From Massilia sp. UMI-21 (GTDB lineage: Bacteria > Pseudomonadota > Gammaproteobacteria > Burkholderiales > Burkholderiaceae_D), in the NCBI GenBank assembly GCA_015277795.1, contig CP063848.1, positions 4,960,001 through 5,024,000 of the forward strand: a stretch of DNA of 64,000 bases, given 5' to 3'. Within the stretch, counting starts at the first letter, position 1, and the number at the start of each line of letters is the position of its first letter. This document shows, one piece after another, positions 14,191 through 34,641 of this stretch. The notes under the pieces are model-generated. The model was not told the origin of the DNA. It made no database searches and saw nothing but the letters and a program-made list of their open reading frames with translations. Both the position numbers and the translations under genes were made by a program.

Positions 14191-14219
14191 TTGATAAATT
14201 GGTCAGTCCAAAATAGAAT
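14191..14219 (+). promoter_or_regulatory. Promoter with operator-like spacer for the CE12 gene
   Basis: TTGATA (14191-14196) and TAGAAT (14214-14219) are separated by exactly 17 bases. The spacer holds TTGGTCAGTCCA, a near palindrome also found, as a perfect or near-perfect palindrome, in the promoters at 19716 and 34601. The CE12 start codon follows 24 bases after the -10 box, with AGGAG as ribosome site. Confidence 0.72.
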
Positions 14220-14243
14220 CGGACGACATCCAGGAGCCCGCCC

Positions 14244-14963
14244 ATGCCAGCTATCAACCACCCCTTCGTCTGCGCCCTTCCCCTGCTGTTCGCCCTCCAG
14301 GCCAATGCGGCGCCCGCCCTGCCCGACCGCGTGATCCTGGTCGGCGACTCGACCATGGCCAGTACCACCGGCTACGGCGACGCCCTGTGCGCGCGCCTGA
14401 CGCCGGAAACCGCCTGCCACAACCTGGCGCGCGGCGGCCGCAGTTCGGGCAGCTTCCGCGCCGAGAAGCGCTGGGATGAAGTCATGGAATTGCTGCGCGA
14501 CGGCGCCGGTTTTCGCAAGACCTATGTGCTGATCCAGTTCGGGCACAACGACCAGCCGGGCAAGCCAGGACGCTCCACCGATTATGTCTCGGAATTCCCG
14601 GCCAACATGACACGCTACGTGCTCGATGCGCGTTCGCTCGGCGGCGTGCCGGTGCTGGTCACGCCCCTGACCCGCCGCAGCTTCAAGAATGGCTACGTGC
14701 ACAACGACCTCGCGCCCTGGGCCGGCACGGTGCGCGCGATCGCGCGCAGCACGAAAGCGCCGCTGGTCGACCTGAACGCACTGTCGCTGGCGGCGGTGCA
14801 AGCGCTGGGTCCCAAGGAGGCAGACAAGCTGGCGCGCGACGGGGCCAACTTCGATTACACCCACCTGGGCCCGTTGGGGGCCGAGCGCTTTTCAAGCATC
14901 GTGGCCAGCGAACTGGTGCGCCAGGTGCCGGCCCTGTCCGCGTCGATGCGGAGCGCGCGGTGA
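14244..14963 (+). CDS. Rhamnogalacturonan acetylesterase, CE12 (SGNH hydrolase)
   Basis: A 239-residue secreted esterase with a signal peptide ending near A-N-A-A at residues 20-23. The SGNH blocks are present in order: G-D-S-T-M-A (nucleophile Ser), G-R-S-S, Q-F-G-H-N-D (block III) and D-Y-T-H-L-G carrying the catalytic Asp and His. This set is typical of CE12 rhamnogalacturonan acetylesterases such as YesT and RhgT, which remove acetyl groups from pectin so lyases can act. Its stop overlaps the GTG start of the PL1-CE8 gene by four bases (G-T-G-A), so the two are probably translated together and secreted for the same task. Confidence 0.9.
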   Translation: MPAINHPFVCALPLLFALQANAAPALPDRVILVGDSTMASTTGYGDALCARLTPETACHNLARGGRSSGSFRAEKRWDEVMELLRDGAGFRKTYVLIQFGHNDQPGKPGRSTDYVSEFPANMTRYVLDARSLGGVPVLVTPLTRRSFKNGYVHNDLAPWAGTVRAIARSTKAPLVDLNALSLAAVQALGPKEADKLARDGANFDYTHLGPLGAERFSSIVASELVRQVPALSASMRSAR

Positions 14964-17900
14964 GCGCGCCGCTGGCGGCCATCGCGCTGGCACTGGCCGG
15001 CGCCGCCGCGACCTCTCCCGATACGCCGGTCGCCGCCCCTGCGGCCCATCCGTCCGCCACTCCGACAGCGGTGGCCCTGGCTGAACGCCAGCATGCCCCC
15101 TCCGACGGCTGGGCCGCGCAAGAAGGCGGCACCCGCGGCGGCGCCCTGGCTGCCCCGGACCACGTCTATACGGTACGCGACCGCACCCAGCTGCTGGCCG
15201 CCCTGCAAGCGCCGGCGCCGGCGCGCATCGTGCGCGTGGCAGCCAGCATCGACATGAGCGAAGGCCGCCCGTTCGACAGCAGCCAGGACCAGGCCCGGCG
15301 CGGCACGCTGCGCATTCCTTCGAACACCACCCTGATCGGCGTGGCGCCGGGCGCCGGTGTCGTCAACGGCAGCCTGGCGGTCGCGAAGGTCTCGCAGGTG
15401 GTCATCCGCAATCTCGCCTTGCGCAATCCCTGCGATGTCGCGCCGCGCTGGGATCCGCAAGACGGCGCCAGGGGCAACTGGAACGCGCTGTTCGACGCCA
15501 TCACGGTGTCGGGCTCGCACCACGTGTGGATCGACCACAACAGCTTCACCGACGCGCCGCAGACCGACGACCTGCAGCCGGTCGAAAACGGCATGCGCAA
15601 GCAATGCCACGACGGTGCGCTCGACATCAACGCGGGCGCGGACTTCGTCAGCGTCACTTATAACCACTTCGCGCTGCACGAGAAGAACATGCTGATCGGG
15701 TCGAGCGACCGCGCGAGCGGGGACGGGGGACACCTGCGCGTGACGCTCAAGGGCAACCTGTTCGAGCACGTGGCCGCGCGCGCCCCACGGGTGCGCTACG
15801 GCCAGGTCCACCTGCTGAACAATTACTACGTGGGCGAGCGCGGGCACCCGGTCTACGGCCACCACTACAGCATCGGCGCGGCCCATGCCTCGCACATCGT
15901 CTCGGATGCGAATGCGTTCGACATCGCGGGCGCCACGCGCTGCAATCAGCTCGTGCGCGATCCGGGCGCAAGCCCGGGTGTGTTCGCGGACACCGGTTCG
16001 CTGCTGAACGGCGCGCCGCTCGAGGATTGTCCCTTTGGCGCCGGGCGCGAGAATGCGGGGCGGCGCGTCCCGTACGGCTTCACCGCCCTGCCGGCGGCCG
16101 AGGTGGCGCGCCACGTGCGCGAGCACGCCGGCCCGCGCACCCTGCCGCAGCGGGCGGACGGCTATGCCGAGGCGCGCATCGTGCCTGCCGCAGGCAGCCC
16201 CTTCCAGCTGCGTGCGCGCCAGGATGCGAACGGCGACTGGCAAGGCGCCAGCCTGCAACTGAGCGAGGACGGCAACGTGATGATGGTGGAGCTGCTGGAG
16301 TCGCGCGGCGGCCAGGTCAAGCGCATCAAGCAGGTGCGCCGCAATGCGCCGCTGCCGGGTGCGCCGGTGGTGCTGCGCTACGCGGCCGAACAGGGCCCGC
16401 AGGGCCAGCTGCTCACCGTGTCGGTGGACGGCGACCGCGCCACCTGGCTGGTGGCACCGCCGCTGCCCGCGGTGCAGCCGGTGGCCTGGGATGCCGGCGC
16501 CGGCACGCTGCTCGACCTGCGCGGGGGCCCTGCCGGCGCGCCCGAACGCGTCACCGTGCACGTCGGCACGGCCCGGCTGGCGCTGCAGGCCGGCGACGCG
16601 CCCGAGCTCCTGCGCGTTGGCGGCGCGACCCGCCTGGGCGCCAGCGCCGCCGATCCGCGCATCGTCGCGGTCGAGGCGGCAGATGGCGGCGTACGGATAA
16701 GGGCGCATGCGCCCGGCCGCACCGCCGTGACCGTGCACAGTCTCGACGATCCATGGGCGCAGGCGATCTTCATGGTCGAGGTGGGCGCGCCCTTCGCCGG
16801 GCCAGGCAAGGCCACCCTTCCCGCCTCCGTCACCGCCTTTCCGGCCCAGGGCGAGCGCGGCGTTCCGCCGGATGCGCCGCTGCGCCTGGTCTTCGCCGAC
16901 CAACCGGTGTTGAGCGGCGAAGGCAGCGTGCGCGTCTACCGCAAGCGCGGCAAGGACCGGGACGCGGCGCTGGTCGCGGTGATCCGCCCCGGCGAGACGG
17001 TCACGGCGCTCGGCCCGCAGGGGCGCCGGCGCCTGGTGCGCCAGCATCCGATCCGGGTGATCGGCAAGGAACTGTACGTGCGGATGCCGCAGCCGCTGGA
17101 ACGCGGCGCCGACTACGAAGCGGTGATCGATTCCCGTCTGGTCCGGGCCCAGGACTTCCGGGGCGCGCGCTGGTCCTTCCGCACCACGCCCTACCTGCCG
17201 GTCGGCGACAGCGTGAGCGTCGACGACGACGGGCGCGCCGACTTCCGCACCGTGCAGGGCGCGCTGGACCACGCCATGTCCCTGCCGCGCGACCAGGCGA
17301 TCACCGTGAACGTGCGCGACGGCGTCTATCCCGAACTGCTGTACCTGCGCGACAAGGATAAGGTGATGCTGCGTGGCCAGAGTCGCGAAGCGACGATCGT
17401 CCGCGCCGCCAACAGCGAGACCCGCAACCCCGGTTCGGGCGCCGGCCAACCGGACGGTTCGGCCGGTGTGCTGGGCGGCCGCTCCCTGTTCCTGGCCCAG
17501 GATGTCGACATGCTGGAACTGCGCGACATCGCGCTGCACAACAGCACCCGCCGCAGCGACGGTCACTCGGCGCAGGCCGAGACCATCTTCTTCAGCAGCG
17601 ACCAGGGGCGCCTGATCGCCCGTAACGCCCGTTTCATCAGCGAGCAGGACACGCTGCAGCTGCATGGCTACGCCTGGTTCTACCAGTCGCTCATCGAAGG
17701 CAATGTCGATTTCGTGTGGGGGAACAACCGCACCGCCCTGTTCGAAGAGAGCGAACTGCGCACCGTCGGCGACAGCGCCAACCCCGACAGCGGCGGCTAC
17801 ATCGTGCAGGCGCGCACCGTGGGACCCGACGAACCGGGCTTCGTGTTCCTGCGCTCGCGCCTGACGCGCGGGCCCGGCCCGCTGGGGAACCTGCCGCCCG

Positions 17901-18178
17901 ATGGCGCCACCTACTTCGCGCGCTCGCCGGGCACCGCCAACACCTGGGACAAGGTCGCTTTCATCGAGTGCAGCGTCGGCCCGCACATCGCCCCGGACGC
18001 CTGGTACCGCAAGCCCTTGCCGAATCCCCTGCAGGGCGGCTGGAGCGAATACGGCAACAAGACCGAGGACCGGCAGCCGCGCAGCTACGGCGGTTACCAG
18101 CTCGACCGGGCGCAAGCCGCGCGCCTGTCCAGCCGCGCCGCGGTATTCGCGGGACGCGGCTGGAATCCCCGGCCCTGA
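14960..18178 (+). CDS. Multidomain pectate lyase (PL1) - pectinesterase (CE8) fusion
   Basis: A 1072-residue secreted protein with a short hydrophobic leader. Residues about 45-390 are a PL1 parallel beta helix: V-W-I-D-H-N-S-F-T-D, H-D-G-A-L-D-I and A-R-A-P-R-V-R-Y-G-Q-V-H match the calcium and catalytic Arg regions. About 390-750 looks like beta-sandwich or Ig-like linker domains with no known catalytic motif. From about 754 a CE8 pectin methylesterase follows, with D-F-R-T-V-Q-G-A-L, E-Q-D-T-L-Q-L (Asp near 894) and G-N-V-D-F-V-W-G-N (Asp near 915). Demethylation and lyase cleavage would thus be coupled in one chain. The PL1 part resembles the separate lyase at 22832. The GTG start overlaps the preceding stop. 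Confidence 0.9.
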   Translation: MSAPLAAIALALAGAAATSPDTPVAAPAAHPSATPTAVALAERQHAPSDGWAAQEGGTRGGALAAPDHVYTVRDRTQLLAALQAPAPARIVRVAASIDMSEGRPFDSSQDQARRGTLRIPSNTTLIGVAPGAGVVNGSLAVAKVSQVVIRNLALRNPCDVAPRWDPQDGARGNWNALFDAITVSGSHHVWIDHNSFTDAPQTDDLQPVENGMRKQCHDGALDINAGADFVSVTYNHFALHEKNMLIGSSDRASGDGGHLRVTLKGNLFEHVAARAPRVRYGQVHLLNNYYVGERGHPVYGHHYSIGAAHASHIVSDANAFDIAGATRCNQLVRDPGASPGVFADTGSLLNGAPLEDCPFGAGRENAGRRVPYGFTALPAAEVARHVREHAGPRTLPQRADGYAEARIVPAAGSPFQLRARQDANGDWQGASLQLSEDGNVMMVELLESRGGQVKRIKQVRRNAPLPGAPVVLRYAAEQGPQGQLLTVSVDGDRATWLVAPPLPAVQPVAWDAGAGTLLDLRGGPAGAPERVTVHVGTARLALQAGDAPELLRVGGATRLGASAADPRIVAVEAADGGVRIRAHAPGRTAVTVHSLDDPWAQAIFMVEVGAPFAGPGKATLPASVTAFPAQGERGVPPDAPLRLVFADQPVLSGEGSVRVYRKRGKDRDAALVAVIRPGETVTALGPQGRRRLVRQHPIRVIGKELYVRMPQPLERGADYEAVIDSRLVRAQDFRGARWSFRTTPYLPVGDSVSVDDDGRADFRTVQGALDHAMSLPRDQAITVNVRDGVYPELLYLRDKDKVMLRGQSREATIVRAANSETRNPGSGAGQPDGSAGVLGGRSLFLAQDVDMLELRDIALHNSTRRSDGHSAQAETIFFSSDQGRLIARNARFISEQDTLQLHGYAWFYQSLIEGNVDFVWGNNRTALFEESELRTVGDSANPDSGGYIVQARTVGPDEPGFVFLRSRLTRGPGPLGNLPPDGATYFARSPGTANTWDKVAFIECSVGPHIAPDAWYRKPLPNPLQGGWSEYGNKTEDRQPRSYGGYQLDRAQAARLSSRAAVFAGRGWNPRP

Positions 18179-18206
18179 CCCGGCGCGCATCAACGGCGTC
18201 CGGCGC

Positions 18207-18260
18207 TTGACAGCGTCATTTACAGCGGTAATCATTGATTCAGATTACAACTGTAAATGA
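18207..18260. promoter_or_regulatory. Nested inverted repeats and -35 box before the BlaI-type gene
   Basis: TTGACA at 18207-18212 is a perfect -35 box. TCATTTACAG (18216-18225) pairs perfectly with CTGTAAATGA (18251-18260), and inside it GTAATC (18228-18233) pairs with GATTAC (18243-18248). BlaI/MecI regulators bind TACA/TGTA dyads of this kind just upstream of their own gene, so autoregulation is likely. Confidence 0.65.
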
Positions 18261-18267
18261 TACTGTC

Positions 18268-18669
18268 ATGCCGAGTACTTCAGGAATCAACATCAGCGAG
18301 GCCGAGTCGCACGTCATGGAAGTGCTGTGGCGCGCGCCCGGCCCGGTCGTGGCCGAGCAGGTCGTGGTGGCGCTGCATGAAACCCAGCACTGGCAGACCG
18401 CCACCGTCAAGACCCTCCTCAATCGCCTGCTCAAGAAAGGCGCCATCGCCGCGCAGAAGGATGGGCGACGCTTTCTCTACCATGCCGTACTGCCGCGCGA
18501 CGCCTGGCTGGCGCGCGAAAGCGAAAGCCTGGTGCAGCGCCTGTTCGGTGGGCGCATCGCACCGCTGGTCGCGCACTTCGGCATGCAGGGCAAGCTGTCG
18601 CCATCGGACATCCTGGAGCTGCGCAAGCTGATCGACGAATTCGATGTCGGTACCGACGGCGGGCAATGA
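18268..18669 (+). CDS. BlaI/MecI/CopY-family transcriptional regulator
   Basis: A 133-residue winged-helix repressor of the penicillinase-repressor family. N-terminal I-S-E-A-E-S-H-V-M-E-V-L-W and T-A-T-V-K-T-L-L-N-R-L-L-K-K-G are the hallmark segments; the C-terminal third is the dimerisation region. Such proteins are usually paired with a BlaR1/M56 sensor protease, or in copper regulation with CopY partners. No sensor gene is adjacent here: the neighbours are the PL1-CE8 gene and a GntR regulator, so its target beyond itself is unknown. The ATG at 18268 directly follows the dyad at 18216-18260; further upstream in-frame starts fall inside that operator. Confidence 0.85.
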   Translation: MPSTSGINISEAESHVMEVLWRAPGPVVAEQVVVALHETQHWQTATVKTLLNRLLKKGAIAAQKDGRRFLYHAVLPRDAWLARESESLVQRLFGGRIAPLVAHFGMQGKLSPSDILELRKLIDEFDVGTDGGQ

Positions 18670-18723
18670 GCGGCAGAACCGAACAACGCGTCCAGCGGCG
18701 GCTTCGCCACACTGTTGGCATAT

Positions 18724-18767
18724 AAGTGGTTGGTCCACTTGCAACATTATCCGCACCAAACTAAGAT
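18724..18767 (+). promoter_or_regulatory. Promoter and dyad for the second GntR gene
   Basis: TTGCAA (18739-18744) and TAAGAT (18762-18767) are spaced by 17 bases and the spacer ends ACCAAAC. Upstream, AAGTGG-ttggt-CCACTT (18724-18740) is a perfect 6-bp inverted repeat overlapping the -35 box. The AGTGGnnnGTCCA core recurs at the same distance in the promoters at 19716 and 34601. Confidence 0.65.
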
Positions 18768-18812
18768 GCGCTGTTTGGCATCGGCCACCACTTTTCCACG
18801 ACGGACCCATCG

Positions 18813-19511
18813 ATGAAGAAAACCGCTGCGCTGAACGAAACCAGCGTTAACGAGCCACGGCTGTACCGGGTGGTATCAAGCAAGATCGAGGAGCTGATCC
18901 GCGCGGAGAACATCCGCCCGGGCGAGCGCTTGCCGGCAGAGCGCGAGCTGGCCACCAAGCTGGGCGTCAGCCGCACTTCGCTGCGCGAGGCCCTGATCGC
19001 CCTCGAACTGGGCGGCAAGGTCGAAGTGCGCGGCGGCTCGGGCGTCTACGTCAGCGAACAGGCCAAGCCGCAGGCCGAGGTGCCGAGCGCCGGCCCGGGG
19101 CCGTTCGAAGTGCTGGCGGCGCGCCGCCTGATCGAAGTCGAAGTCGCCGCGCTCGCCGCCAAGCACGCCAGCGATTCGGCCATCGACGCCATCTTGCGCG
19201 CCGTCGAAGAGATGGAGCAACACCACGAAGACCGCAGCGGCAACGAATCGGCCGACCGCAACTTCCACCTGGCGATCGCCCGCGCCACCGGCAACAGCGC
19301 GATGGTCGGCGTGATCGAATACCTGTGGAGCCAGCGCGGCTCGCTCTGGCACAAGCTGAAGGAGCATTTCCAGACCGAGGAACTGCGCCAACAGACCCTG
19401 ATCGACCACCGCAACATCTTCGCCGCCATCGCGTCGCACGACGTGGCCGGCGCCCGTTCGGCGATGCGCGCCCACCTCGACCGCGTGACCCGCACCTTCT
19501 CGCGCGGCTGA
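18813..19511 (+). CDS. GntR-family (FadR/FCD) transcriptional regulator, second copy
   Basis: A 232-residue FCD regulator. The winged helix spans residues about 17-84 (R-L-P-A-E-R-E-L-A-T-K-L-G-V-S-R-T-S-L-R-E-A); the FCD domain carries D-R-N-F-H-L-A-I-A-R-A-T-G-N and D-H-R-N-I-F-A-A-I. It is diverged from the regulator at 13346. It lies just upstream of the TonB receptor and lyase genes and its own promoter shares sequence boxes with theirs, so it is the best candidate for the regulator of that promoter set (inference). The inducer would be a pectin breakdown product. The gap before it is 143 bases and holds its promoter. Confidence 0.9.
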   Translation: MKKTAALNETSVNEPRLYRVVSSKIEELIRAENIRPGERLPAERELATKLGVSRTSLREALIALELGGKVEVRGGSGVYVSEQAKPQAEVPSAGPGPFEVLAARRLIEVEVAALAAKHASDSAIDAILRAVEEMEQHHEDRSGNESADRNFHLAIARATGNSAMVGVIEYLWSQRGSLWHKLKEHFQTEELRQQTLIDHRNIFAAIASHDVAGARSAMRAHLDRVTRTFSRG

Positions 19512-19590
19512 TTCCCCTGGGCCAGGGCCGGATTCTCCGGTCCGGCGGCCCGACTCCCCTCCCAGTACACCACGCGCACCGGCCCCGCGC

Positions 19591-19630
19591 CGAATCGCGC
19601 CGAATCGCGCCGAACCGCGCCAGGCCGCGC
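19591..19630. repeat. Short tandem repeat, 10-base unit
   Basis: CGAATCGCGC occurs twice in tandem, followed by CGAACCGCGC and CAGGCCGCGC. It lies in the 371-base gap between the second GntR gene and the TonB receptor gene. It is too short and degenerate to assign a role. Confidence 0.5.
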
Positions 19631-19700
19631 GGTCTCCCAGCAATATTAGTCCTTCGCCAATTGGTTCAACCGCATTTACGCCTGTACAGGCCAGAAAATA

Positions 19701-19744
19701 AGTGGCAAGTCCAGATTGCGAAAGCGGTCAGACCAAAGTAGAAT
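19701..19744 (+). promoter_or_regulatory. Promoter with operator palindrome for the TonB receptor gene
   Basis: TTGCGA (19716-19721) and TAGAAT (19739-19744) are 17 bases apart. The spacer contains the perfect palindrome GGTCAGACC (19726-19734). An AGTGGCAAGTCCA box sits at 19701-19713. It aligns without gaps over 44 bases with the promoter at 34586. It leaves a leader of about 130 bases before the GTG start at 19883. Confidence 0.72.
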
Positions 19745-19882
19745 CTCCAAGACCAATCCGCTGAATATCCTTCATGGCGCCGCTGAATGACTCGACTGGC
19801 CCCGAACGATAGGACGGAACATTGATACGGGCGATCCAGGAACAGACCGGACGCACTCGACGACCAAAGCAGGAGACATGCA

Positions 19883-22729
19883 GTGAAAAATCAACGAATT
19901 ACCGGGCCACGCATGGCCGAGGCACGCCGTACCGAACCGCGCTTCCTTCTGTCGGCAGTCACTGCCGCAGTGCTCACCATGATGAACACCGCAGCGGCGC
20001 AGGAAGCGCCGATGCAGCGTGTCGAAGTCACCGGTTCCTCGATCAAGCGCCTCGCCACTGAAAATGCCCTCCCCCTCACCACGATCAAGGCCGAAGAGCT
20101 GACCAACCGCGGCCTGACCACGATGTCGGAAGTCGCCGTGGCCCTGACCGTCGCCTCGACCAACGAGCCGGTGGGCGGCGGCGGCAGCGGCACCATGATC
20201 AACATGCGCGGCCTGAATACCAACCGTACCCTGGTCCTGCTCAACGGCCGCCGCCTGGCCAATGAAGCCCTGGGCGACAGCTCGGTCAACGTCGACGTCA
20301 TCCCGATGGCCGCCATCGAGCGCGTCGAAGTGCTGCGCGACGGCGCCTCGGCCCTGTACGGCACCGATGCGATCGCCGGCGTGGTCAACTTCATCACCAA
20401 GAAATCGATCACCGGCGTGAAGCTCAGCGCCAGCACCGTGCAGCCGGAAGCCTCGGGCGGCGGCGCCCAGCGCCGCGCCGGCTTCGTGGCCGGCAAGGGC
20501 GACCTGGCCACCGACGGCTGGAACGTCTACACCGCCTTCGATATCCAGCGCCGCGATTCGCTGCTGCAGCGCGATCGCCCCGACATCACCGACCCGGCCA
20601 AGATCGCCCAGCTCGGCGGCACCCCGTTCTCCCCGAACACCTCGGGCGGCGCGGCCTCGCCGGCGAACTTCACCATCTACCGCAACGGCAAGTCGGCCGG
20701 CATCACCGGCAATCCGTATTTCGCGGCCGGCTGCGTGACCCCGTACGCGATCCAGACCACGATCCCGTCGACCCGCACCAGCGCCAATGGCGGCAAGACC
20801 TGCATCACCGACCCGACCTACTATCCCGAGCTGCTGCCGGAAGCCCAGCAGGCCACCCTGCATACCCGCGCCACCATCGCGCACGGCGAAGGCAAGCTGC
20901 TGAGCGTCGAACTGAACCTGTCCAAGTCCTACATCGACGCCTCGGACGCGCCGCAACCCTTCGGCGCCAACGTGAACTACGACCGCTTGACCGCCTCGCG
21001 CGTGCCCTTGATGATCACCAGGGCCAGCAAATGGTATCCGGGCGGCAGCGGCGGCGTGCCGGCCGTGGCCGGCCTGAACGGCGAAGACCTGGCCCTGACC
21101 TGGAGCCTGGACGAACTCGGCCCGGTCACCAGCCACGACGAGCAGCAGAACCACCGCCTGGTGGTCCAGGACGAAGGCCAGCTCAATGCATTCGGCAGCT
21201 GGGATTACCGGGTCGGCGCGTCCTACGCCTACAGCAAGCGCGACGTCGGCTTCCGCGACAACTTCGTGCGCACGCCGGGCCTGTACGCCGGCGTCGCCAA
21301 CGGCACCCTGAACCCGTTCGGCCCGCAGGACGCGACCGGCCTGGCCTACCTCGAGAGCATCTCGGCCGACGGCATGGATTACCGGAATGCCGACGTGCGC
21401 TACTACGGCGCCGACCTGAACCTGTCGCGCACCCTGATGGACCTCGGCGGCGGCGCCCTGGGCCTGGCGGTGGGCGCGGACTGGCACCGCGAGACCTTCG
21501 AAGAGAACGCGAACATGCTGGGCGACGAAGTCGTCTACAAGGTATCGGGCAGCCCGGGCCGCAACCCGAGCGGCGCGCGCAGCGTGGCCGGCATGTATGC
21601 CGAACTCGATGCGCCGGTCACCAAGGCACTGAACCTGAACTTCGCGGTACGCGCCGACCATTTCAGCGACTTCGGCAACACCGTCAACCCGAAGGCCAGC
21701 GTCCGCTACCAGCCGATGAAGCAGCTGATGCTGCGCGGTACGGTGAGCAAGGGCTTCCGCGCGCCGACGCTGCCGGAACTGTACGGCGCGGAGCGTACGC
21801 TGACGCCGTCGTCGTCGAACTGGGATGATCCGCTGCTGTGCCCGAGCGCGACGCCCGGCGTGACCGGCACCGGCACCCCGAGCACCGACCCGCGCTACGC
21901 CGGCCTGAACCTCGATCCGACCACCGTCTGCAACACGCGTCTGACCACCCTGACCGGCGCCAACCCGGACCTGCAACCGGAGAAATCGAAGACCTATACC
22001 GTCGGTCTCGTGCTCGAGCCGTTCAAGAACTTCGTCGCCACCGTCGACTTCTGGAAGATCGACATGACGGGGACGATTGCCCAGGTATCGGAAGACACGA
22101 TCTTCAACAACATCGCGAAGTACCAGGACCTGTTCGTACGTAATCCGGACGGCACGCTGCAGTACATCACGAAAACGCGCCTGAACATGGGCGGCCTGCG
22201 TACCCAGGGCGTGGACATCGGCCTGAACTACATGGTCCCGACCGCGCACTGGGGCCGCTTCGGCTTCTCGATGGACGGCAGCTACACCGACAAGTACGAA
22301 GGCCAGGACGAGGAAGGCGGTGAATGGTTCGACAGCGTCGGCAAGAACGGCGCCCTGTCTACCGGCGCCACCTCTTCGAACACCTACGTGTTCAAGTGGA
22401 AGCACCAGGCCCGCGCAAACTGGAGCTACGGCCCGTTCTTCGTCCAGCTGACGCAGCAGTATGCGTCGAGCTACGAAGACACCAACGCCCTGACGACCCA
22501 GAAACCGGGCCAGCCCTTCTTCAACCGCATCGCGCCCTACCGCGTCTACAACCTGTCGAGCAGCTGGAAGGTCAACAAGCAGCTGAAGGTCGGCGCCGGC
22601 GTGAACAACCTGTTCGACGTGGATCCGCCGCTGTCGAACCAGCGCCTGAGCTCGCGCGTCGTGTTCGCACGTAACGTCGCCAAGCCGATCGGCCGCACCT
22701 TCACGGTGCGTGCGGACTACGCGTTCTAA
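19883..22729 (+). CDS. TonB-dependent outer membrane receptor, probable pectin-oligomer uptake
   Basis: A 948-residue receptor with a signal peptide (cleavage near A-A-A-Q at residues 37-40). The plug begins with V-E-V-T-G-S-S-I-K-R and contains M-R-G-L-N-T-N-R-T-L-V-L-L-N-G-R-R and V-E-V-L-R-D-G-A-S-A-L-Y-G-T-D. The rest is a 22-strand barrel ending in a C-terminal Phe (A-D-Y-A-F), the outer membrane insertion signal. The GTG at 19883 follows AGGAGA. It heads a plus-strand run with the PL1 lyase and GH28 genes, so oligogalacturonides are the likely cargo, energised by TonB-ExbBD; the substrate is inference from context. N-terminal extension typical of sigma-regulator transducers is absent. 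Confidence 0.9.
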   Translation: MKNQRITGPRMAEARRTEPRFLLSAVTAAVLTMMNTAAAQEAPMQRVEVTGSSIKRLATENALPLTTIKAEELTNRGLTTMSEVAVALTVASTNEPVGGGGSGTMINMRGLNTNRTLVLLNGRRLANEALGDSSVNVDVIPMAAIERVEVLRDGASALYGTDAIAGVVNFITKKSITGVKLSASTVQPEASGGGAQRRAGFVAGKGDLATDGWNVYTAFDIQRRDSLLQRDRPDITDPAKIAQLGGTPFSPNTSGGAASPANFTIYRNGKSAGITGNPYFAAGCVTPYAIQTTIPSTRTSANGGKTCITDPTYYPELLPEAQQATLHTRATIAHGEGKLLSVELNLSKSYIDASDAPQPFGANVNYDRLTASRVPLMITRASKWYPGGSGGVPAVAGLNGEDLALTWSLDELGPVTSHDEQQNHRLVVQDEGQLNAFGSWDYRVGASYAYSKRDVGFRDNFVRTPGLYAGVANGTLNPFGPQDATGLAYLESISADGMDYRNADVRYYGADLNLSRTLMDLGGGALGLAVGADWHRETFEENANMLGDEVVYKVSGSPGRNPSGARSVAGMYAELDAPVTKALNLNFAVRADHFSDFGNTVNPKASVRYQPMKQLMLRGTVSKGFRAPTLPELYGAERTLTPSSSNWDDPLLCPSATPGVTGTGTPSTDPRYAGLNLDPTTVCNTRLTTLTGANPDLQPEKSKTYTVGLVLEPFKNFVATVDFWKIDMTGTIAQVSEDTIFNNIAKYQDLFVRNPDGTLQYITKTRLNMGGLRTQGVDIGLNYMVPTAHWGRFGFSMDGSYTDKYEGQDEEGGEWFDSVGKNGALSTGATSSNTYVFKWKHQARANWSYGPFFVQLTQQYASSYEDTNALTTQKPGQPFFNRIAPYRVYNLSSSWKVNKQLKVGAGVNNLFDVDPPLSNQRLSSRVVFARNVAKPIGRTFTVRADYAF

Positions 22730-26487: not shown

Positions 26488-26515
26488 AGCTTCGGCACCG
26501 ATTCGCTGCCCCGCG

Positions 26516-27016: not shown

Positions 27017-27145
27017 GGCGGCCTTTCCTGTGCTCGTGGGGAGTTGTATGCTAAAAGACGTTGATGATGGTCAACTGGACATGCATGACTATGCCCGTTT
27101 CCATTCCCCCTTGCAATCACACGACCGACAAACCGCCCGACACCC

Positions 27146-27955: not shown

Positions 27956-28238
27956 CGCCGGCGGCGATCCAGACCACCGCGATCAGCACCGCAATGATGC
28001 TCGGAAAGAGCAGCGGCACCGCCAGTTCCGGCCGCATCTCGACGATCCAGGCGCATGCGAGGAACACGATCACGGGAAGCAGCAGCCTGGCCGCGGCATA
28101 GCGATTGATCCGGACCGCCTGCTCGGCAGAGTCGTAGTGGACGATATTCAGGATCTTCAGCCGCGGCGCGAGGTAGAGCACCGCGGCGACGCACGACAGG
28201 AACAGCGCGATGAACAGAAAGAGTCCGGTCACGATCAT
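27936..28238 (-). CDS. Small membrane protein (100 aa)
   Basis: A 100-residue protein with three predicted membrane segments (about 3-22, 52-70 and 76-94). Its ATG overlaps the stop of the upstream cupin gene as A-T-G-A, showing translational coupling with it. A longer reading from upstream would add a non-hydrophobic leader inside the cupin gene and is rejected. No family recognised. Its 3' end overlaps the convergent DUF218 gene by about 20 bases. Confidence 0.6.
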   Translation of the reverse strand: MIVTGLFLFIALFLSCVAAVLYLAPRLKILNIVHYDSAEQAVRINRYAAARLLLPVIVFLACAWIVEMRPELAVPLLFPSIIAVLIAVVWIAAGVTRLAP

Positions 28239-28630
28239 CCCCCCGGTTCCGGCCGGACCGGCCTGTGCAGGGTACCCTCGCCACGCGTTACGTGCAGCAT
28301 GCGGCTCGGCGCGCGCACCTTGGCGGTATGCCATACGCCGCGCGGCACCACGACGGCGCCCGAAGCTTCCAACACGATTTTCTCCACTTCTGCGCCCCGA
28401 TCGAGCTGCAGCTCGACGGCGCCGGACAGCAGATACACGAATTCGTCGCCTTGCGGATGCATCTCCCAGTTCGGCCAGTCTTGCGTGAAAGCGAACTCAG
28501 AAATCAGCCAGCCTTGCGCGTAGCGCGCGAGTTCGGATGGCGGCATTTGCCAGAAGGATGCGCCTGGCAGGTCCCGGGCGCCGCCATCGTCGGCAAGGTA
28601 CACATAGGTATGCTGCGGGTCGAGGACCAT
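28235..28630 (-). CDS. Cupin-domain protein
   Basis: A 131-residue single-domain cupin. The two conserved blocks are visible: W-E-M-H-P-Q-G-D-E-F-V-Y-L-L-S-G (His and Glu metal ligands) and V-V-V-P-R-G-V-W-H-T-A (second His). Such proteins bind a divalent metal and may be isomerases, dioxygenases or sugar-binding proteins. It is translationally coupled to the small membrane protein gene. It lies just downstream of the esterase-GH43 gene with a 57-base gap, so a role in sugar metabolism is possible but unproven. Confidence 0.75.
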   Translation of the reverse strand: MVLDPQHTYVYLADDGGARDLPGASFWQMPPSELARYAQGWLISEFAFTQDWPNWEMHPQGDEFVYLLSGAVELQLDRGAEVEKIVLEASGAVVVPRGVWHTAKVRAPSRMLHVTRGEGTLHRPVRPEPGG

Positions 28631-28687
28631 GGCGGCTCCGGTGCTAGGGTGCGGAATACCCCCAAGTCTATCACCGACCGAATTCCT

Positions 28688-31141
28688 TCAGGGCGTGACG
28701 CGCAGGTAGTCGATGTCGGCAAAGGCGCCCTCTGCGCCGGTGGCGAACAGGCCGACCTGGGCGCCGACCCAGCGGCCCATGCTGGCCTCGAAGGGCTGGC
28801 CGAGCTGGGTATAGCGCAGCCCATCGGCGCTGTACCAGAACGACGCAAAGGCGCCGGCAGTGACCTGCATGCGCAGGTGCGCCGCAAAGCCCGGCAACAC
28901 CTCGCCCAGCGCTTCGACGCACTTGCCGTCCTGGCCGCAGCTGACCCTCAGCACGCGCGGCTGGCCCTCGACGCGGCGCAGGCCGAACCAGTGACTTGCC
29001 AGGCCCAGCGTGCCGAGTCCTACCTGGTCGCCGTCACGCCGTGCGTTCAGCGCCACTTTGGCGGTGACGCCGAAGGCCGGCGCCGGGAACTTCTGGGTCA
29101 GCACCGACGCCAGACTGCGCACCGGCGCCTCCGGCTGGGCGAACAGGCGCAGCACGCCAGGGCGCGCATCGAGCGCGTACCAGCGCCGGTCTGGATTCGC
29201 CGCCCATTGCCACTGCGGGCCCAGCACCTTGCCGTCGAATTCGTCGCCCGTCGCGGGAACCCGCTGCGCGACGCTGCCCGCCACCGGCTTGGCGTGTTCC
29301 AGCACCGGTTGGCCGGTCCCGGGCGTGTTTGAAGGCTCGCCGATCAGCGGCCAGCCATCTTCCCAGCGCATCGGCTGCAGGTGGACCACGCGTCCGTAGG
29401 CGCGCTTGTCCTGGAAATGGAAGAACCAGTCCGTGCCCTGCGGCGTCGTCACCCAGGCGCCCTGGTGCGGCCCGTTGACCGGGGTGGCGCCCTGGTGCAT
29501 CACGATGCGCGATTCGTAGGGTCCGTCGATACTGCGCGAGCGAAATACCGACTGCCAGCCCTCCTCGACGCCGCCCGCCGGCGCGAACACGTAATACCAG
29601 CCGTTCGCCTTGTACAGCTTGGGCCCTTCCAGCGTGCGGTAGCCGGGCAGCTTGTCGCCGTCGATCACGACCGTGCCTTCGCTGTCCAGCAGGCGGCGCC
29701 CGCTGGGGTCCATCCTGCGCAGCGTGAGCACGTTGTTGAAGCCGGCCCGGCTCCTGGCCCAGGCGTGAATCAGATACGCCTTGCCGTCATCGTCCCACAG
29801 CGGGGCCGGATCGATGATGCCCTTGCCCGCCAGGAGCAGGTGCGGCGCGCTCCACGGGCCGTCGAAGCTGGCGGCCGTGGTGACGTACACGCCCTGGTCC
29901 GGGTCCGGGTAGAAGATCCAGAATGTGTCGTCGTGGTAGCGCAGGGATGGCGCCCAGACGCCCTTGCCATGCTGCGGCGCGACGAACTGCGCGCCCGGCG
30001 TCAGCTGCGGCAAGGCGTGGCCCCTCAGCTCCCAGTTGACCATGTCCTGCGAGGACAGCAGCGGCAGGCCCGGCGCGTTCGCGAAGCTGGAGGCCACCAT
30101 GTAGTAGGTGTCGCCGACACGGATCGCATCGGGATCGGAATAGTCGGCGTGCAGGATCGGGTTGCGATAGCGGCCGTCGCCCAGGTCGGGCGACCATGGT
30201 GCGCGCGCCTCTGTCGTGCCAGCCCCGGGCCCGAGCGTGCGCGCCAGGAAGGCGGCCATTGCATCGACGGTCGGCGACACCCACGGGTCGAACAGCCAGA
30301 ACGCATGCGGGGTACCGGACAGCGCCACGGTATCGGTGTGGATGCCGTGCGACGCCAGCCTGGCCGCCATCGCTTCGCGGCCCACCGAGAAGCGCGGCAC
30401 GCCGCTGACGATGAACAGCACCGGCGGGCTCCCCTTGCCGGCATGGGTAAGCGGCGAAGCGTCGCGCCACAGCGCTTCCTTCTCGGCGTAGCGGCCGCCG
30501 AACCAGGCGCCGGCGGCGGAGGGATTCTTGGCCGGGTCGTCCTCGTACCTGCGCGCCTGCTCCGAGGTGAAGTCGGACAGGCCGTCGATGCTCACCACGG
30601 CGCGGATCGCCTGCGGCGCGAGCATGCCGACCAGCGAGGCGATCTGGCCGCCGGCCGAACCCCCGGCGATCGCGACGCGCGCCGGGTCGATGCCGAAGCC
30701 TTCCGCGCCGCTGCGCAACCAGCGCACGGCTTGCGTCACGTCGTCAATGGCGGCCGGGTAGCGCGCCTGGCCCGACAGGCGATAGCTGACGGTGGCGGCC
30801 GCGTAGCCACGCGCGGCCAGCCGCGCCGCCAGCGGCGCCATGTTGGCGCGTTGGCCGCTGCCCCAGCCGCCGCCATGCACCAGCACCACCAGCGGCGCAG
30901 GCCCGGCGCCCGGTCCGGGCAGGTAGAGGTCGAGGCGAAGGGCCAGCTCGCCGCGCTGCGCATAGACGAGGTCCTTGCGCACTTGCACCGGCGCCGGCGC
31001 CTCGGCGCTGGCGATACGGATGAACGGATAGTCGCGCACCAGCTTGCGGTAGGTGGTGTCGGCGTTGAACGGGGCCTGGGCCTGCGCCGCACACGGCGCC
31101 ATGGCGAGGGCCAGCAGAAGCGCAGCGGGCAGACGCTTCAT
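28688..31141 (-). CDS. Carbohydrate esterase - GH43 fusion enzyme
   Basis: An 817-residue exported protein with a signal peptide ending A-A-Q-A-Q-A near residue 23. Residues about 45-305 are an alpha/beta hydrolase with V-H-G-G-G-W-G-S-G (about 89), A-G-G-S-A-G-G (Ser about 160) and G-T-P-H-A-F (His about 279). From about 325 a GH43 five-bladed propeller follows: R-N-P-I-L-H-A-D-Y-S-D-P-D-A-I-R (base Asp), and Y-R-T-L-E-G-P-K-L-Y (acid Glu). The last 200 residues are a beta-sandwich like the XynB C-terminal domain. It may remove acetyl groups and arabinose or xylose from pectin side chains. The ATG overlaps the epimerase stop; an apparent 200-residue N-terminal extension is a shadow of the epimerase gene. 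Confidence 0.88.
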   Translation of the reverse strand: MKRLPAALLLALAMAPCAAQAQAPFNADTTYRKLVRDYPFIRIASAEAPAPVQVRKDLVYAQRGELALRLDLYLPGPGAGPAPLVVLVHGGGWGSGQRANMAPLAARLAARGYAAATVSYRLSGQARYPAAIDDVTQAVRWLRSGAEGFGIDPARVAIAGGSAGGQIASLVGMLAPQAIRAVVSIDGLSDFTSEQARRYEDDPAKNPSAAGAWFGGRYAEKEALWRDASPLTHAGKGSPPVLFIVSGVPRFSVGREAMAARLASHGIHTDTVALSGTPHAFWLFDPWVSPTVDAMAAFLARTLGPGAGTTEARAPWSPDLGDGRYRNPILHADYSDPDAIRVGDTYYMVASSFANAPGLPLLSSQDMVNWELRGHALPQLTPGAQFVAPQHGKGVWAPSLRYHDDTFWIFYPDPDQGVYVTTAASFDGPWSAPHLLLAGKGIIDPAPLWDDDGKAYLIHAWARSRAGFNNVLTLRRMDPSGRRLLDSEGTVVIDGDKLPGYRTLEGPKLYKANGWYYVFAPAGGVEEGWQSVFRSRSIDGPYESRIVMHQGATPVNGPHQGAWVTTPQGTDWFFHFQDKRAYGRVVHLQPMRWEDGWPLIGEPSNTPGTGQPVLEHAKPVAGSVAQRVPATGDEFDGKVLGPQWQWAANPDRRWYALDARPGVLRLFAQPEAPVRSLASVLTQKFPAPAFGVTAKVALNARRDGDQVGLGTLGLASHWFGLRRVEGQPRVLRVSCGQDGKCVEALGEVLPGFAAHLRMQVTAGAFASFWYSADGLRYTQLGQPFEASMGRWVGAQVGLFATGAEGAFADIDYLRVTP

Positions 31142-32019
31142 AGCGCCGCCCCGCGGAAGGCGCAACGACGGCGCAGCGTCGCGCCCGGTGCAAGCACCGT
31201 CAAGCCCGGGTAGCCCGGCAGGTTGTGCGCATTGATCGGGTGGTCCACCGGCTCGAAGCAGAACACGTCGCGTCCCGGCGGAGCGTAGAGGATGAAATAA
31301 TCCATGTCGGCCTGTAGCTCCAGTGCGACACGGCGTGCCGGCCAGGCGATGCGGGCGGTCCCGTGCCAGCCTTCGAAGACGTTGTCCACGCCGTCCTGCG
31401 GCAGGGGCGCCGGATGAGCGAAGCGCCAATGCGAAGGAATGTCCTGGCGGATCACCGGCAGTTTGTCGGGGCCGGCCATCCAGACGCTGTTGGCGCCGGC
31501 CTGGAGCAGCGCGCCGCTCGGGTCGGGCATCCAGGGATGCAGGCCGATCCCGAAGGGCAGCGCCCTGCGGCCGGCGTTGCATACGCTCAGTTCCAGCACC
31601 AGCGCATCGTCGACCAGGGTGTAGTGCAGCTCGGCCGTGTAGGCGAAGGGCTGCGCGTCCCGGCGGTCCAGCGTCAGGGTCAAGGAAGTGTCGACATGCG
31701 CCGCCACGCGCCAGGGCTGCTGCCAGGCGTCGCCGTGGATCGGGCAAGGCTCGCCCGCACGGTTGGGGGCGGGTGTGTGGCGCGTCCCCTCGAAGGCGAA
31801 GCCGGACGGCGCCATCCGGTTCGACCAGGGCAATAGCGGAAAACAGGCCAGCTGCCCCGGCAGCGGCATGGCCGTCACGTCGGACGGCAGCGGGCGCAGC
31901 AGCGCTCGCGGCGGCGCGCCATCGCCGCCCAGCCAGTCCAGCCGCGCGAGGCCGCCGCCCGCCTGGGGCACGACCTCCGCCAGCAGGCGGGCGTTGCGCA
32001 GGGTGAGCCGGTCGAGCAT
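31138..32019 (-). CDS. Aldose 1-epimerase family protein
   Basis: A 293-residue galactose-mutarotase-fold protein. It shows S-N-R-M (substrate Arg region), P-I-H-G-D-A-W (His), and I-G-L-H-P-W-M (second His), with E-P-V-D-H-P-I-N-A-H near the C-terminus carrying the catalytic Glu region. It would interconvert sugar anomers. In this setting, between the uronate dehydrogenase and the esterase-GH43, it probably supplies the right anomer of galacturonate or a released neutral sugar. The start lies 4 bases after the Udh stop and its stop overlaps the next start (A-T-G-A), so the three genes form one unit. Confidence 0.85.
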   Translation of the reverse strand: MLDRLTLRNARLLAEVVPQAGGGLARLDWLGGDGAPPRALLRPLPSDVTAMPLPGQLACFPLLPWSNRMAPSGFAFEGTRHTPAPNRAGEPCPIHGDAWQQPWRVAAHVDTSLTLTLDRRDAQPFAYTAELHYTLVDDALVLELSVCNAGRRALPFGIGLHPWMPDPSGALLQAGANSVWMAGPDKLPVIRQDIPSHWRFAHPAPLPQDGVDNVFEGWHGTARIAWPARRVALELQADMDYFILYAPPGRDVFCFEPVDHPINAHNLPGYPGLTVLAPGATLRRRCAFRGAAL

Positions 32020-32023
32020 CGGA

Positions 32024-32842
32024 TCAGTATTGCGGCCCGTCGAGCAAAAACTTGCCGCCCTGGTAGGTTGTGGTGACGTCGTCGCTGGCCGGGAACTCGG
32101 CGGTATCCGGGAACAGGTGGGCGAATCGCGACGAGCTGTCCTTCGGTTTGTAGCCGAGGTGCGAGGCCAGGCGGTTGTCCCACCATACGCTGTCGTTGTC
32201 CGAGACGCCGTACACGATGGTGTGGCCGACACGCGGCGCGAACAGCGAGCAGCGCAGCATCTCGACCAGGTCGTCGTAGGAGAACCAGGTGCTCATCATG
32301 CGCTTGTTGGCCGGTTCCGGGAAGCTCGAGCCGATGCGGATGCACACGGTCTCGATGCCGAAGCGGTCGTAGTAGTAGCGCGCGATCTGCTCGCCGAAGA
32401 CCTTCGACAGGCCGTAGTAGCTGTCGGGGCGGGTCGGCGAGTTCGCGTCCAGCACCGTGTTGACGTGGTGGTAGCCGATCGCGTGGTTGGAGCTGGCGAA
32501 GATCACCCGGCGGGTGCCGGCCTTGTGCAGCGCCTCGTACAAATTGGCCACGCCCAGGATGTTGGCCTGCATGATCGGCTCGAAGGGCTTTTCGGTGGAG
32601 ATGCCGCCGAAGTGCAGCACCGCGTCCACGCCGTCGAGCAGCGCGAGCACCGCCTGTTTATCGGCCAGGTCGCACTGGACGATTTCCTCGCCCTCGCGCG
32701 CCTCGCCCATGTCGGCGACGTCGGACAGGCGCACGACGTCCGCCCATGGCTTGATGCGCTCGCGCAGCACCTTGCCCAGGCCGCCGGCGGCGCCGGTCAG
32801 CAGGATGCGTTTGAAGGGTTTGCCTGTTGCAGTGTCGGTCAT
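32024..32842 (-). CDS. udh: Uronate dehydrogenase
   Basis: A 272-residue short-chain (epimerase-type) dehydrogenase. The Rossmann motif is L-L-T-G-A-A-G-G-L-G-K, the catalytic Tyr and Lys are in S-Y-Y-G-L-S-K, and S-S-N-H-A-I-G-Y is characteristic of Udh. The enzyme oxidises galacturonate or glucuronate with NAD to the aldarolactone, the first step of the oxidative pathway. The ATG at 32842 has AAGGAG upstream. The gene follows garD after a 148-base gap that contains a dispersed repeat. Length and motifs match known bacterial Udh (265-275 residues). Confidence 0.93.
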   Translation of the reverse strand: MTDTATGKPFKRILLTGAAGGLGKVLRERIKPWADVVRLSDVADMGEAREGEEIVQCDLADKQAVLALLDGVDAVLHFGGISTEKPFEPIMQANILGVANLYEALHKAGTRRVIFASSNHAIGYHHVNTVLDANSPTRPDSYYGLSKVFGEQIARYYYDRFGIETVCIRIGSSFPEPANKRMMSTWFSYDDLVEMLRCSLFAPRVGHTIVYGVSDNDSVWWDNRLASHLGYKPKDSSSRFAHLFPDTAEFPASDDVTTTYQGGKFLLDGPQY

Positions 32843-32894
32843 TCCAAGACTCCTTGATATTCGTGGCGTTGCCATGAACGCTTGCGGGCTTTTC

Positions 32895-32928
32895 GTAGGG
32901 TGGGCGGCTCTGCCGCCCACGCGTTCAA
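32895..32928. repeat. Dispersed GTAGGGTGGGCGGC repeat, short form
   Basis: The stretch starts GTAGGGTGGGCGGC, then GCCGCCCACGCGTTCAA, forming a GGGCGGC...GCCGCCC hairpin. The same two blocks occur in the longer element at 53212-53375. It sits in the garD-udh gap. Confidence 0.7.
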
Positions 32929-32990
32929 ATCCCCGTAGCGGACAATGGACGCAAATATTCGTGCAGCGGCAACAACGCCCAATTCGTTGT

Positions 32991-34532
32991 TCAGGTCACC
33001 GGCGCCGGATTGAACAGCGCCAGTGCATTATGCAGTTTCCAGTGTTCGGCCCAGGTCTTGCGCCCGCTGGCCACGTCGAGGATCAGGCGGAACAGTTCCC
33101 AGCCCACGTCCTCGATCGTCGCTTCTCCGCTGGCGATGCGGCCGGCGTTCACGTCCATCAGGTCGTGCCAGCGCGTCGCCAGCTCGGTGCGGGTGGCCAC
33201 CTTGATGACCGGGACCGCCGCCAGGCCATACGGCGTGCCGCGGCCGGTGGTGAAAATGTGCACGTTCATGCCGGCGGCCATCTGCAGGGTGCCGCAGATG
33301 AAATCGCTGGCCGGGGTGGCGGCGTAGATCAGGCCCTTCTGCTGCAGCTTCTCGCCCGGCGACAGCACGCCGGTGATCGCCGTGGTGCCCGACTTGACGA
33401 TCGAGCCCATGGCCTTTTCCACGATGTTCGACAGGCCGCCCTTCTTGTTGCCGGGCGTGGTATTCGCGCTGCGGTCGACGCCGCCGCGCACCAGGTAATC
33501 GTCGTACCATTGCATCTCGCGCACCATCGCCTGGGCGACTTCGGGGGTGGCGGCGCGCGCGGTGAGCTGGTCGATGCCGTCGCGGACTTCGGTAATCTCG
33601 GAGAACATCACGGCGGCGCCGGCGCGCACCAGCAGGTCGGTGGCGAAGCCCACCGCCGGGTTGGCGGTCACGCCCGAAAAAGCGTCGCTGCCGCCGCACT
33701 GCACGCCGACCACCAGGTCGGCAGCCGGGCAGGTCTCGCGCCGGCGCGCGTTGAGCAGCTCCAGGTGCTGCTCGGCGGTCCGCATCAGATTGTCGATCAT
33801 CGACATGAAGCCGACGTGCTGCTGGTCCTGCAGGGTGACGACCGAGGGTTCGGCGTTGCCGATCGGGATCGCCCCGGCCGGGAACAGGCGCGCCGGCGGC
33901 AGCTTCTCGCAGCCCAGGCTGACGACCATGACGTGGTCGCCGAAGTTCGGGTTGCGCGACAGGTTGCGGATGGTCTTGATCGGGATGTCGGCGCCTGGCG
34001 CGTCGATTGCGACACCGCAACCGTACACGTGCTCGAGCGCGACCACGTCCTCGACGTTCGGGTAGCGCGGCAGCAGTTCTTCCTTGATGCGCTTGACCGC
34101 GTAGTCGATCACCCCGGAAACGCACTGCACGGTGCTGGTGATGGCCATGATGTTGCGGGTACCAACCGAGCCGTCCCGGTTGCGGTAGCCTTCGAAGGTA
34201 TGGCCTTCGAGTGCCGGGCCGGCGGCCACCGCACGCGTCCCGATGGGCAGGTCTTCGAGCGAACGTGCTTCCGGCATGCGCAGCACACGCTCCGATACCC
34301 AGCTGCCGCGCGGGATCGCGCCGCTGGCATAGCCGATCGTCACGCCGTAGCGGGTCACGGCATCGCCATCCGCCAGGTCGGCCAGCGCCACCTTGTGGCC
34401 TTGCGGGACCGCTTCAATCAGGGTCAGGCCGTCCGGAAAGACGGTGCCCGCGGGCAGTCCGCCGTCGTTGACGACGATGGCGACGTTGTCGCTGGCCTGC
34501 ATGCGGATCGTGCGCGGAACTTGGGTGCTCAT
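32991..34532 (-). CDS. garD: Galactarate dehydratase (UxaA/GarD family)
   Basis: A 513-residue protein with an N-terminal SAF domain (residues about 10-90) and the large C-terminal catalytic part. [20 protein letters not shown] and [17 protein letters not shown] are shared by the family; the last fits GarD. It removes water from galactarate to give 5-dehydro-4-deoxyglucarate, the KdgD substrate. Altronate dehydratase UxaA is the closest alternative, but no isomerase or reductase partner is in the window while Udh and KdgD are. Divergent from the GH105 gene with a 166-base shared promoter region. Confidence 0.88.
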
Positions 34533-34565
34533 GATGTGTTGCCTTGGTCGGTAGGTTCTTTTTCA

Positions 34566-34576
34566 GTATGCCATAC
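34566..34576. promoter_or_regulatory. Small palindrome between garD and GH105
   Basis: GTATG-C-CATAC is a perfect 5-1-5 palindrome 34 bases upstream of the garD start on the minus strand. It may be an operator for garD; no regulator is assigned. Confidence 0.4.
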
Positions 34577-34585
34577 ACTCCGCGC

Positions 34586-34641
34586 AGTGGCTAGTCCACC
34601 TTGCGATTTTGGTCGGACCAAATTAGAATGGACTGACCAAA
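34586..34641 (+). promoter_or_regulatory. Promoter with two operator-like sites for the GH105 gene
   Basis: TTGCGA (34601-34606) and TAGAAT (34624-34629) are spaced by 17 bases. The spacer contains TTTGGTCGGACCAAA (34608-34622), a perfect 15-base palindrome. A second related site, TGGACTGACCAAA (34629-34641), overlaps and follows the -10 box and is the reverse complement of the CE12 operator core. AGTGGCTAGTCCA lies upstream at 34586-34598. Being between divergent genes, it may also control garD. Confidence 0.78.

Follow-up and report, generated by a model that had tools for sequence, protein, structure and literature searches.

Introduction

Repressors of the FCD (FadR) type with multiple operators, the core of these operators and the regulator family itself are already known. 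The box of Escherichia coli LldR is AAnTGGTCnGACCAnTT, and two boxes are present in all the LldR-binding regions of the study concerned (PMC10272880). The consensus of FadR is AACTGGTCNGACCAGTT (PMC3626644), and UxuR and ExuR are described as hexuronate autorepressors (PMC9369180). Additional weaker boxes near the palindromic sites of the FadR subfamily were reported by Suvorova et al. 2015 (PMC4494728). E. coli NanR, a GntR-type repressor that occupies the three units of (GGTATA)3 as three cooperative dimers, is a solved precedent (PMC8012715). Here, four promoters of a pectin locus are described in a stretch of 64,000 nucleotides from Massilia sp. UMI-21 (contig CP063848.1), hereafter the window. 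What is new is a promoter of pectin genes interlocked with two or three operators, which is carried across part of the bacterial family. No description of such a regulon was found among the papers listed by searches of an open-access library, as judged by titles and the beginnings of abstracts. Most likely, a single sugar-acid-sensing protein would switch pectin use on and off through these promoters.

Results

Putative operators are interleaved with four promoters

The initial annotation of the window had proposed a common architecture for the promoters of the CE12 gene (P1), of the second of two gntR genes (gntR2, P2), of a TonB receptor gene (P3) and of the GH105 gene (P4). CE12 and GH105 are the names given in that annotation; Pfam returns GDSL lipase and glycosyl hydrolase family 88, respectively. 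The proposed architecture was borne out: at 4/4 promoters, a TTG −35 box is separated by exactly 17 bp from a −10 box reading TAGAAT or TAAGAT. The shared spacer motif CCAAAnTAGAAT is indeed found at P1, P3 and P4 only within the window, the gntR2 spacer retaining the ACCA half with 4/10 mismatches, and the combination CCAAAnTARRAT is confined to P1–P4, as claimed. The shorter string GGTCnGWCC is found, too, at 35268 (+) and 42819 (−), where by eye no such promoter surrounds it, and at 34630 (−), within the third operator copy of P4. The upstream motif AGTGGnnnGTCCA occurs in the window at 18725, 19701 and 34586 only, that is, at three of the promoters as had been stated; the distance is not identical, since the motif starts 14 bp before the −35 box at P2 and 15 bp before it at P3 and P4.

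The spacer motif has the TKGT/ACMA half-sites, with 3 nt between GT and AC, of the consensus for FCD (FadR) subfamily operators (PMC4494728). The spacer copy of P4 is an exact TGGT-N3-ACCA, those of P1 and P3 are one mismatch off, and that of P2 is degenerate; at P2 the upstream copy is the fuller operator. In total, three copies are present at P4 and in relatives, and two at each of P1–P3. The upstream copy of P1 and the third copy of P4, at 34629–34639, had been missed in the initial annotation, as had the probable nature of AGTGGnnnGTCCA, which appears to be the FadR/FCD-type operator once more, in a second, degenerate copy. It is read as such because perfect operators hold this position in relatives: TGGTCTGACCA or TGGTCCGACCA upstream of gntR2 in at least three genomes of the genus (L044, L045, L047) and, before CE12, TGGCCTGACCG, the alternative there being CGGCCTGACCG. 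It is also read so because, among 110 unique promoters, 96 match TGGNNNGNCCA at the upstream position with at most two mismatches (better of two offsets), compared with 1/110 in a control placed 11 bp further up.

The upstream AGTGG/TGGCTAGTCCA element is placed like an activator site, and it is regularly off-consensus, reading TGGCTAGTCCA or CGGCTAGTCC in many listed arrays. Two proteins might therefore share the promoters, the gntR2 product (GntR2) occupying the spacer site (and the third), and another activator or repressor the upstream element. The perfect operators found there in relatives, however, and the conservation of the TGG...CCA ends, whose phase is almost constant at 21 or 22 bp, make this division unlikely.

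Arrays are conserved before pectin genes

A contig scan with the GntR2 protein yielded 80 named loci, the best 80 of 117 relatives, from Massilia, Duganella, Undibacterium, Pseudoduganella, Rugamonas and unclassified relatives. Promoters consisting of a TTGC-like −35 box, the operator and TANNAT were counted and assigned to the nearest homologue within 400 bp. The 80 loci and the window contain 120 promoters of this form with the operator at ≤2 mismatches; a scrambled operator never came closer than 4 mismatches under the same setting. Without the window, 112 of the 117 promoters precede gntR2 (48), GH105 (22), CE12 (21), TonB-receptor (20) or PL1-CE8 (1) genes, and 5 are unassigned.

When loci containing the start of a gene and the 350 bases before it were considered, the array (≤2 mismatches) was present upstream of GH105 in 22/22, of CE12 in 21/58 and of the TonB receptor in 20/52. 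It precedes gntR2 in 47/79 loci, and in 63/79 at ≤4 mismatches (L108, with only 294 bases upstream, was excluded). No array was found before gntR1 (0/21 loci), GH28 (0/49) or uxaA (0/34). The lower proportions for CE12 and the TonB receptor gene may be due to their location, since in many loci both follow gntR2 and point the same way.

The third operator (≤1 mismatch) was found at 19/19 unique GH105 promoters, 25/44 of gntR2, 1/20 of the TonB receptor and 0/21 of CE12; before gntR2 it is present in 17/19 loci labelled Duganella and 7/16 labelled Undibacterium. Among pairs of strong operators no more than 60 bp apart, 47/54 have a spacing of 19 bp, a sharp peak. The complete 51-bp triple array (≤3 mismatches) was detected in 126/392 sampled genomes of the family, covering 8/44 genera, and the reversed control gave 0. 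Fourteen stretches from this search were inspected and amount to 13 distinct arrays (L209 contains L203), each preceding a homologue of gntR2 or of GH105. In L209, the array is followed by a gntR2 of 62% identity and then by a gene of the UxaC family. From gene to gene the operators are kept, while spacers and flanks vary.

These data bear on whether four A+T-rich promoters could merely look alike by chance, or stem from a recent promoter duplication, with no regulator in common. The window offers four cases only, and duplication could be the original source of the copies. Nevertheless, the frequency of the triple array in the family against a control of zero, and the retention of operators amid differing spacers and flanks, render such an origin of the likeness hardly credible.

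A separate feature is located in the leader that follows the gntR2 promoter, where several Massilia relatives (e.g. L068) have an inverted repeat like TTGGCA-N5-TGCCAA; it is degenerate in the window (18768–18800).

Close matches of the combined motif are confined to the locus

The genome (5,302,561 bases) was searched by mismatch patterns, and reversed patterns served as controls. The 20-base pattern TGGTCNGNCCAAANTAGAAT, made of the spacer operator and the −10 box, was found with 0–1 mismatch at P1, P3 and P4 and nowhere else. At ≤3 mismatches there were 6 matches versus 3 for the reversed control; the three extra ones are all at 3 mismatches and one of them is the reverse reading of P4 itself. 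The motif is thus not equally common before unrelated genes, the outcome by which the initial annotation would have been refuted; its matches at 0–1 mismatch are restricted to the pectin locus. Across the genus, 118 matches were found at ≤2 mismatches, 104 of them no more than 36 kb from a gntR2 gene. Of the 14 located elsewhere, two come from G010 and G006, genomes whose gntR2-bearing contigs are so short (24.9 and 4.9 kb) that the distance cannot be assessed.

The motif follows gntR2

GntR2 matches PF00392 (1.1e-19) and PF07729 (1.1e-25), both above cut-off, and belongs to the FCD (FadR) subfamily. Among NCBIfam models it scores highest against UxuR, with 154.4 bits, and ExuR, with 137.7 bits; these scores are below the equivalog cut-offs of 442 and 396 bits, so that by this test GntR2 does not qualify as an orthologue of either.

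The co-occurrence of motif and regulator was examined in 62 genomes of the genus, with the motif at ≤2 mismatches, gntR2 at E ≤1e-60 and gntR1 at E ≤1e-30. The motif is present in 42/45 genomes with gntR2 versus 1/17 without (Fisher 5.7e-11), and in 42/50 with gntR1 versus 1/12 without (Fisher 1.5e-6), values that overstate independence as the genomes are related. Within the genus, the motif tracks gntR2 better than gntR1.

The correlation with gntR1 nonetheless raises the question of whether GntR1 is the protein that binds the arrays. It is likewise an FCD/GntR regulator, its gene adjoins P1, and an arginine of the recognition helix is common to both proteins; the rest of its DNA-binding segment differs from that of GntR2. 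The six genomes with gntR1 but no gntR2 contain a single motif match (G075) which, by eye, has neither a TTG −35 box nor an upstream copy in place. Conversely, the motif is present in G006 (83% complete), the sole genome that gave a match for gntR2 but none for gntR1. Moreover, gntR1 has its own upstream palindrome, AAGAYGTCNGACRTCTT, different from the arrays. Of 22 upstream regions, that of the window and 6 others contain this palindrome without mismatch; it is found at ≤2 mismatches in 11/22 (window included), and the other 11 have 3–6 mismatches. It is likely the operator of a separate regulon comprising gntR1 and the DHDPS-family and aldehyde dehydrogenase genes. Given this palindrome and the weaker co-occurrence, GntR1 was rejected as array binder, a role for which we see only a very slight chance.

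The suggestion that the gntR gene at 18813 encodes the regulator is therefore strengthened by the FCD type of its product, the arrays at the promoters of its homologues and the co-occurrence with the motif, all of which make GntR2 the candidate. Its supposed autoregulation fares less evenly: arrays are present at its own promoter across homologues, but for this genome it is the weakest part of the proposal. As the spacer copy of P2 is degenerate, autoregulation in this Massilia would rest on the upstream copy.

The upstream operator of P4 may serve a divergent promoter

Divergent from P4 is a gene for a protein of the altronate/galactarate dehydratase family, which we take to be UxaA; uxaA is also divergent from gntR2 in 17/19 loci titled Duganella. 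The weak −35 box of a candidate uxaA promoter lies inside the upstream operator of P4. Among 37 uxaA upstream regions (window included), 26 have TAGCCA or TAGCCG in the upstream operator followed by CATACT towards uxaA, with a gap of 17 bp in 19 cases and 18 bp in 7; the other 11 lack the searched string. Because the upstream operator contains this candidate −35 box, the array may also control uxaA.

The divergent −35 box was considered as the sole cause of the constancy of TGGCTAGTCCA and rejected. The same sequence, or the near copies CGGCTAGTCCA, CGGCTAGTCCG and TGGCTAGTCCG, occurs in loci for which tblastn gave no adjoining uxaA (e.g. L078–L080, L084–L093).

Features of the locus

The features are gathered in Table 1. 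Between PL1-CE8 and gntR2 lies a small open reading frame (ORF) of the penicillinase-repressor family (BlaI/MecI type, PF03965 4.8e-33; 18235–18669), present in 9 of the named loci counted. A short G+C-rich tandem repeat, CGCGCCGAAT, in 3.6 copies (19586–19621), separates gntR2 from the promoter of the TonB receptor gene.

Table 1. Promoters, operators and genes of the pectin locus, numbered from the first base of the window.
Feature	Positions	Strand	Remarks
P1 core promoter, CE12 / PL1-CE8 genes	14191..14219	+	TTGATA-17-TAGAAT
P2 core promoter, gntR2	18739..18767	+	TTGCAA-17-TAAGAT
P3 core promoter, TonB receptor / PL1 / GH28 genes	19716..19744	+	TTGCGA-17-TAGAAT
P4 core promoter, GH105 / DUF4861 genes	34601..34629	+	TTGCGA-17-TAGAAT
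P1 upstream operator copy	14179..14189	+	CGGACAGGCCA; 21 bp from spacer copy
P1 spacer operator	14200..14210	+	TGGTCAGTCCA; TGGTCAGGCCA in several relatives
P2 upstream operator	18727..18737	+	TGGTTGGTCCA; 21 bp from spacer copy
P2 degenerate spacer operator	18748..18758	+	TATCCGCACCA; half-site ACCA, 4/10 mismatches
P3 upstream operator	19703..19713	+	TGGCAAGTCCA; 22 bp from spacer copy
P3 spacer operator	19725..19735	+	CGGTCAGACCA
P4 upstream operator	34588..34598	+	TGGCTAGTCCA; 22 bp from spacer copy
P4 spacer operator	34610..34620	+	TGGTCGGACCA; perfect FadR/LldR-type core
P4 third operator	34629..34639	+	TGGACTGACCA; shares last T of −10 box; 19 bp downstream of spacer copy
Candidate divergent uxaA promoter	34565..34593	-	TAGCCA-17-CATACT; weak −35 box inside P4 upstream operator
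gntR2, FCD/GntR regulator, UxuR/ExuR-like	18813..19511	+	proposed binder
gntR1, FCD/GntR regulator, divergent from CE12	13346..14119	-	start codon probably further in
Palindrome upstream of gntR1	14123..14139	.	AAGATGTCTGACGTCTT; perfect, 17 bp; proposed operator of gntR1, unlike array
GDSL esterase, "CE12"	14244..14963	+	
Pectate lyase and pectinesterase fusion (PL1-CE8)	14960..18178	+	
TonB-dependent receptor	19883..22729	+	
Altronate/galactarate dehydratase family (uxaA-like)	32991..34532	-	divergent from P4
Glycosyl hydrolase family 88 (Pfam), "GH105"	34699..36111	+	

Discussion

From the anatomy of the promoters, their conservation, their gene association and their co-occurrence with gntR2, we infer binding, repression and an effector as well as, more tentatively, cooperativity. 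We hold it highly probable, from sequence, that GntR2, an UxuR/ExuR-like FCD repressor, occludes polymerase at a local pectin regulon made of P1–P4 and also acts on its own promoter. Dimers of GntR2 would bind 11-bp operators of the TGGT-N3-ACCA type, which are placed among the elements of the sigma-70 core promoter. The first adjoins the −35 box on its upstream side, 21–22 bp before the copy that occupies the 17-bp spacer; the GH105 promoter and some gntR2 promoters have a third immediately after the −10 box, 19 bp downstream of the spacer copy. Bound dimers would thereby cover the −35 box, the spacer and the start region, and exclude polymerase. An intermediate of galacturonate breakdown would release them; such an inducer is proposed because genes of the hexuronate pathway are neighbours. 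In Massilia, the weakened spacer operator of gntR2 would leave its autoregulation looser than the control of its targets and dependent mainly on the upstream copy.

The polymerase-blocking dimeric FCD repressor put forward in the initial annotation fits the placement of the operators over the spacer and the −35 box. The sequence fixes no sign of regulation, and some FCD regulators act both ways, so an activator or a dual regulator was also considered. A dimer bound on operators that cover the −35/−10 spacer and the start region would, however, clash with polymerase. The spacing of 17 bp is optimal, which makes a MerR-like twisting activator unlikely. UxuR and ExuR are themselves described as autorepressors (PMC9369180). 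A regulator other than an occluding repressor thus seems quite improbable.

An extension of the occlusion model, which we regard as speculative, is that three FCD dimers would bind cooperatively on a lattice whose register may be set by the −35 box, the spacer and the position just past the −10 box. The upstream unit would gate uxaA too, and tuning of the units would grade the order of induction, with perhaps a weak spacer unit at gntR2, two units at CE12 and the TonB receptor, and three at GH105.

Several observations weigh against repression by GntR2 at a local regulon. Genome-wide, neither the 12-bp operator TTGGTCNGACCA (38 matches versus 69 for the control at ≤1 mismatch) nor the upstream element AGTGGNNNGTCCANNTTG (101 versus 180 at ≤2 mismatches) is enriched by itself. 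The signal is specific only in combination, not in single elements, and an operator-only scan was rejected as a means of finding the regulon, its matches not exceeding the reversed control. The upstream TGGCTAGTCCA departs consistently from the consensus, and a different factor could bind it. The 20-mer is missed at ≤2 mismatches in 3/45 gntR2 genomes; G032 has the triple form at 2 mismatches, the locus of G024 (L076) has one array, and none was seen in G083. No array at ≤4 mismatches precedes gntR2 in 16/79 loci. Ten of these (L059, L061, L063, L064, L066, L068, L073, L075, L076 and L083) keep the TTGCAA/−10 frame with a spacer operator at 5–8 mismatches; L114 has a one-mismatch operator with an odd −35 box; and L094, L098, L099, L102 and L104 show no recognisable array before gntR2 homologues that are 73–75% identical. 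The spacer copy before gntR2 is thus often poor in Massilia. Finally, a site with 3 mismatches is located off the locus at genome position 3620953 (L005), in register with TATAAT. The site is on the minus strand, as are the ORFs on either side of it: the downstream one, at 136 bp, encodes a TonB plug domain, and the upstream one a TonB barrel. The TTGCAA of the site stands 2 bp further away than a spacer of 17 bp would require. The regulon may extend beyond the locus, or similar sites may be used by a different FCD protein.

The region of that site (L005:1380–1520, genome ~3620.8–3621.0 kb), before the TonB plug-domain ORF, also holds two copies of GAATTGATATGACC. Two FCD-like palindromes, TGGCCGGACCA and TGGCCTGGCCA, are present there 97 bp apart, one of them in register with TATAAT. 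They could possibly mark an additional target, or else a different FCD system.

Known mechanisms are not overturned by the proposed repression by GntR2. It yields a testable pectin-use regulon with a likely regulator in Massilia, Duganella, Undibacterium and relatives, and the dozens of natural operator variants in fixed register form a series in which operator number and strength can be compared with repression and order of induction.

The units of NanR are repeats within one block downstream of the polymerase site, whereas the units here are TGGNCNGNCCA palindromes spread through the promoter, and GGTATA repeats are absent. The cooperativity of NanR uses an N-terminal extension of 32 residues (PMC8012715); GntR2 lacks a long one, as its GntR domain match begins at residue 17. 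The half-sites of Suvorova et al. lie 7–12 nt from the site centre, while full-length copies are found here at 19 and 21–22 bp (PMC4494728). UxuR and ExuR are the best NCBIfam matches of GntR2, and many GntR2 homologues are encoded beside uxaA, one (L209) beside uxaC. The scores are nevertheless far below the cut-offs, and the targets here include depolymerases and a TonB receptor. The gap between GT and AC is 2 nt in UxuR sites, compared with 3 nt in ExuR sites and here (PMC4494728). With FadR and LldR, the core TGGTCNGACCA is the same as in the spacer operator of P4 (PMC10272880, PMC3626644). The differences are that pectin genes are concerned here, that GntR2 scores nearer to UxuR/ExuR than to LldR, and that the operator copies, up to three, stand in fixed register with the −35 and −10 boxes.

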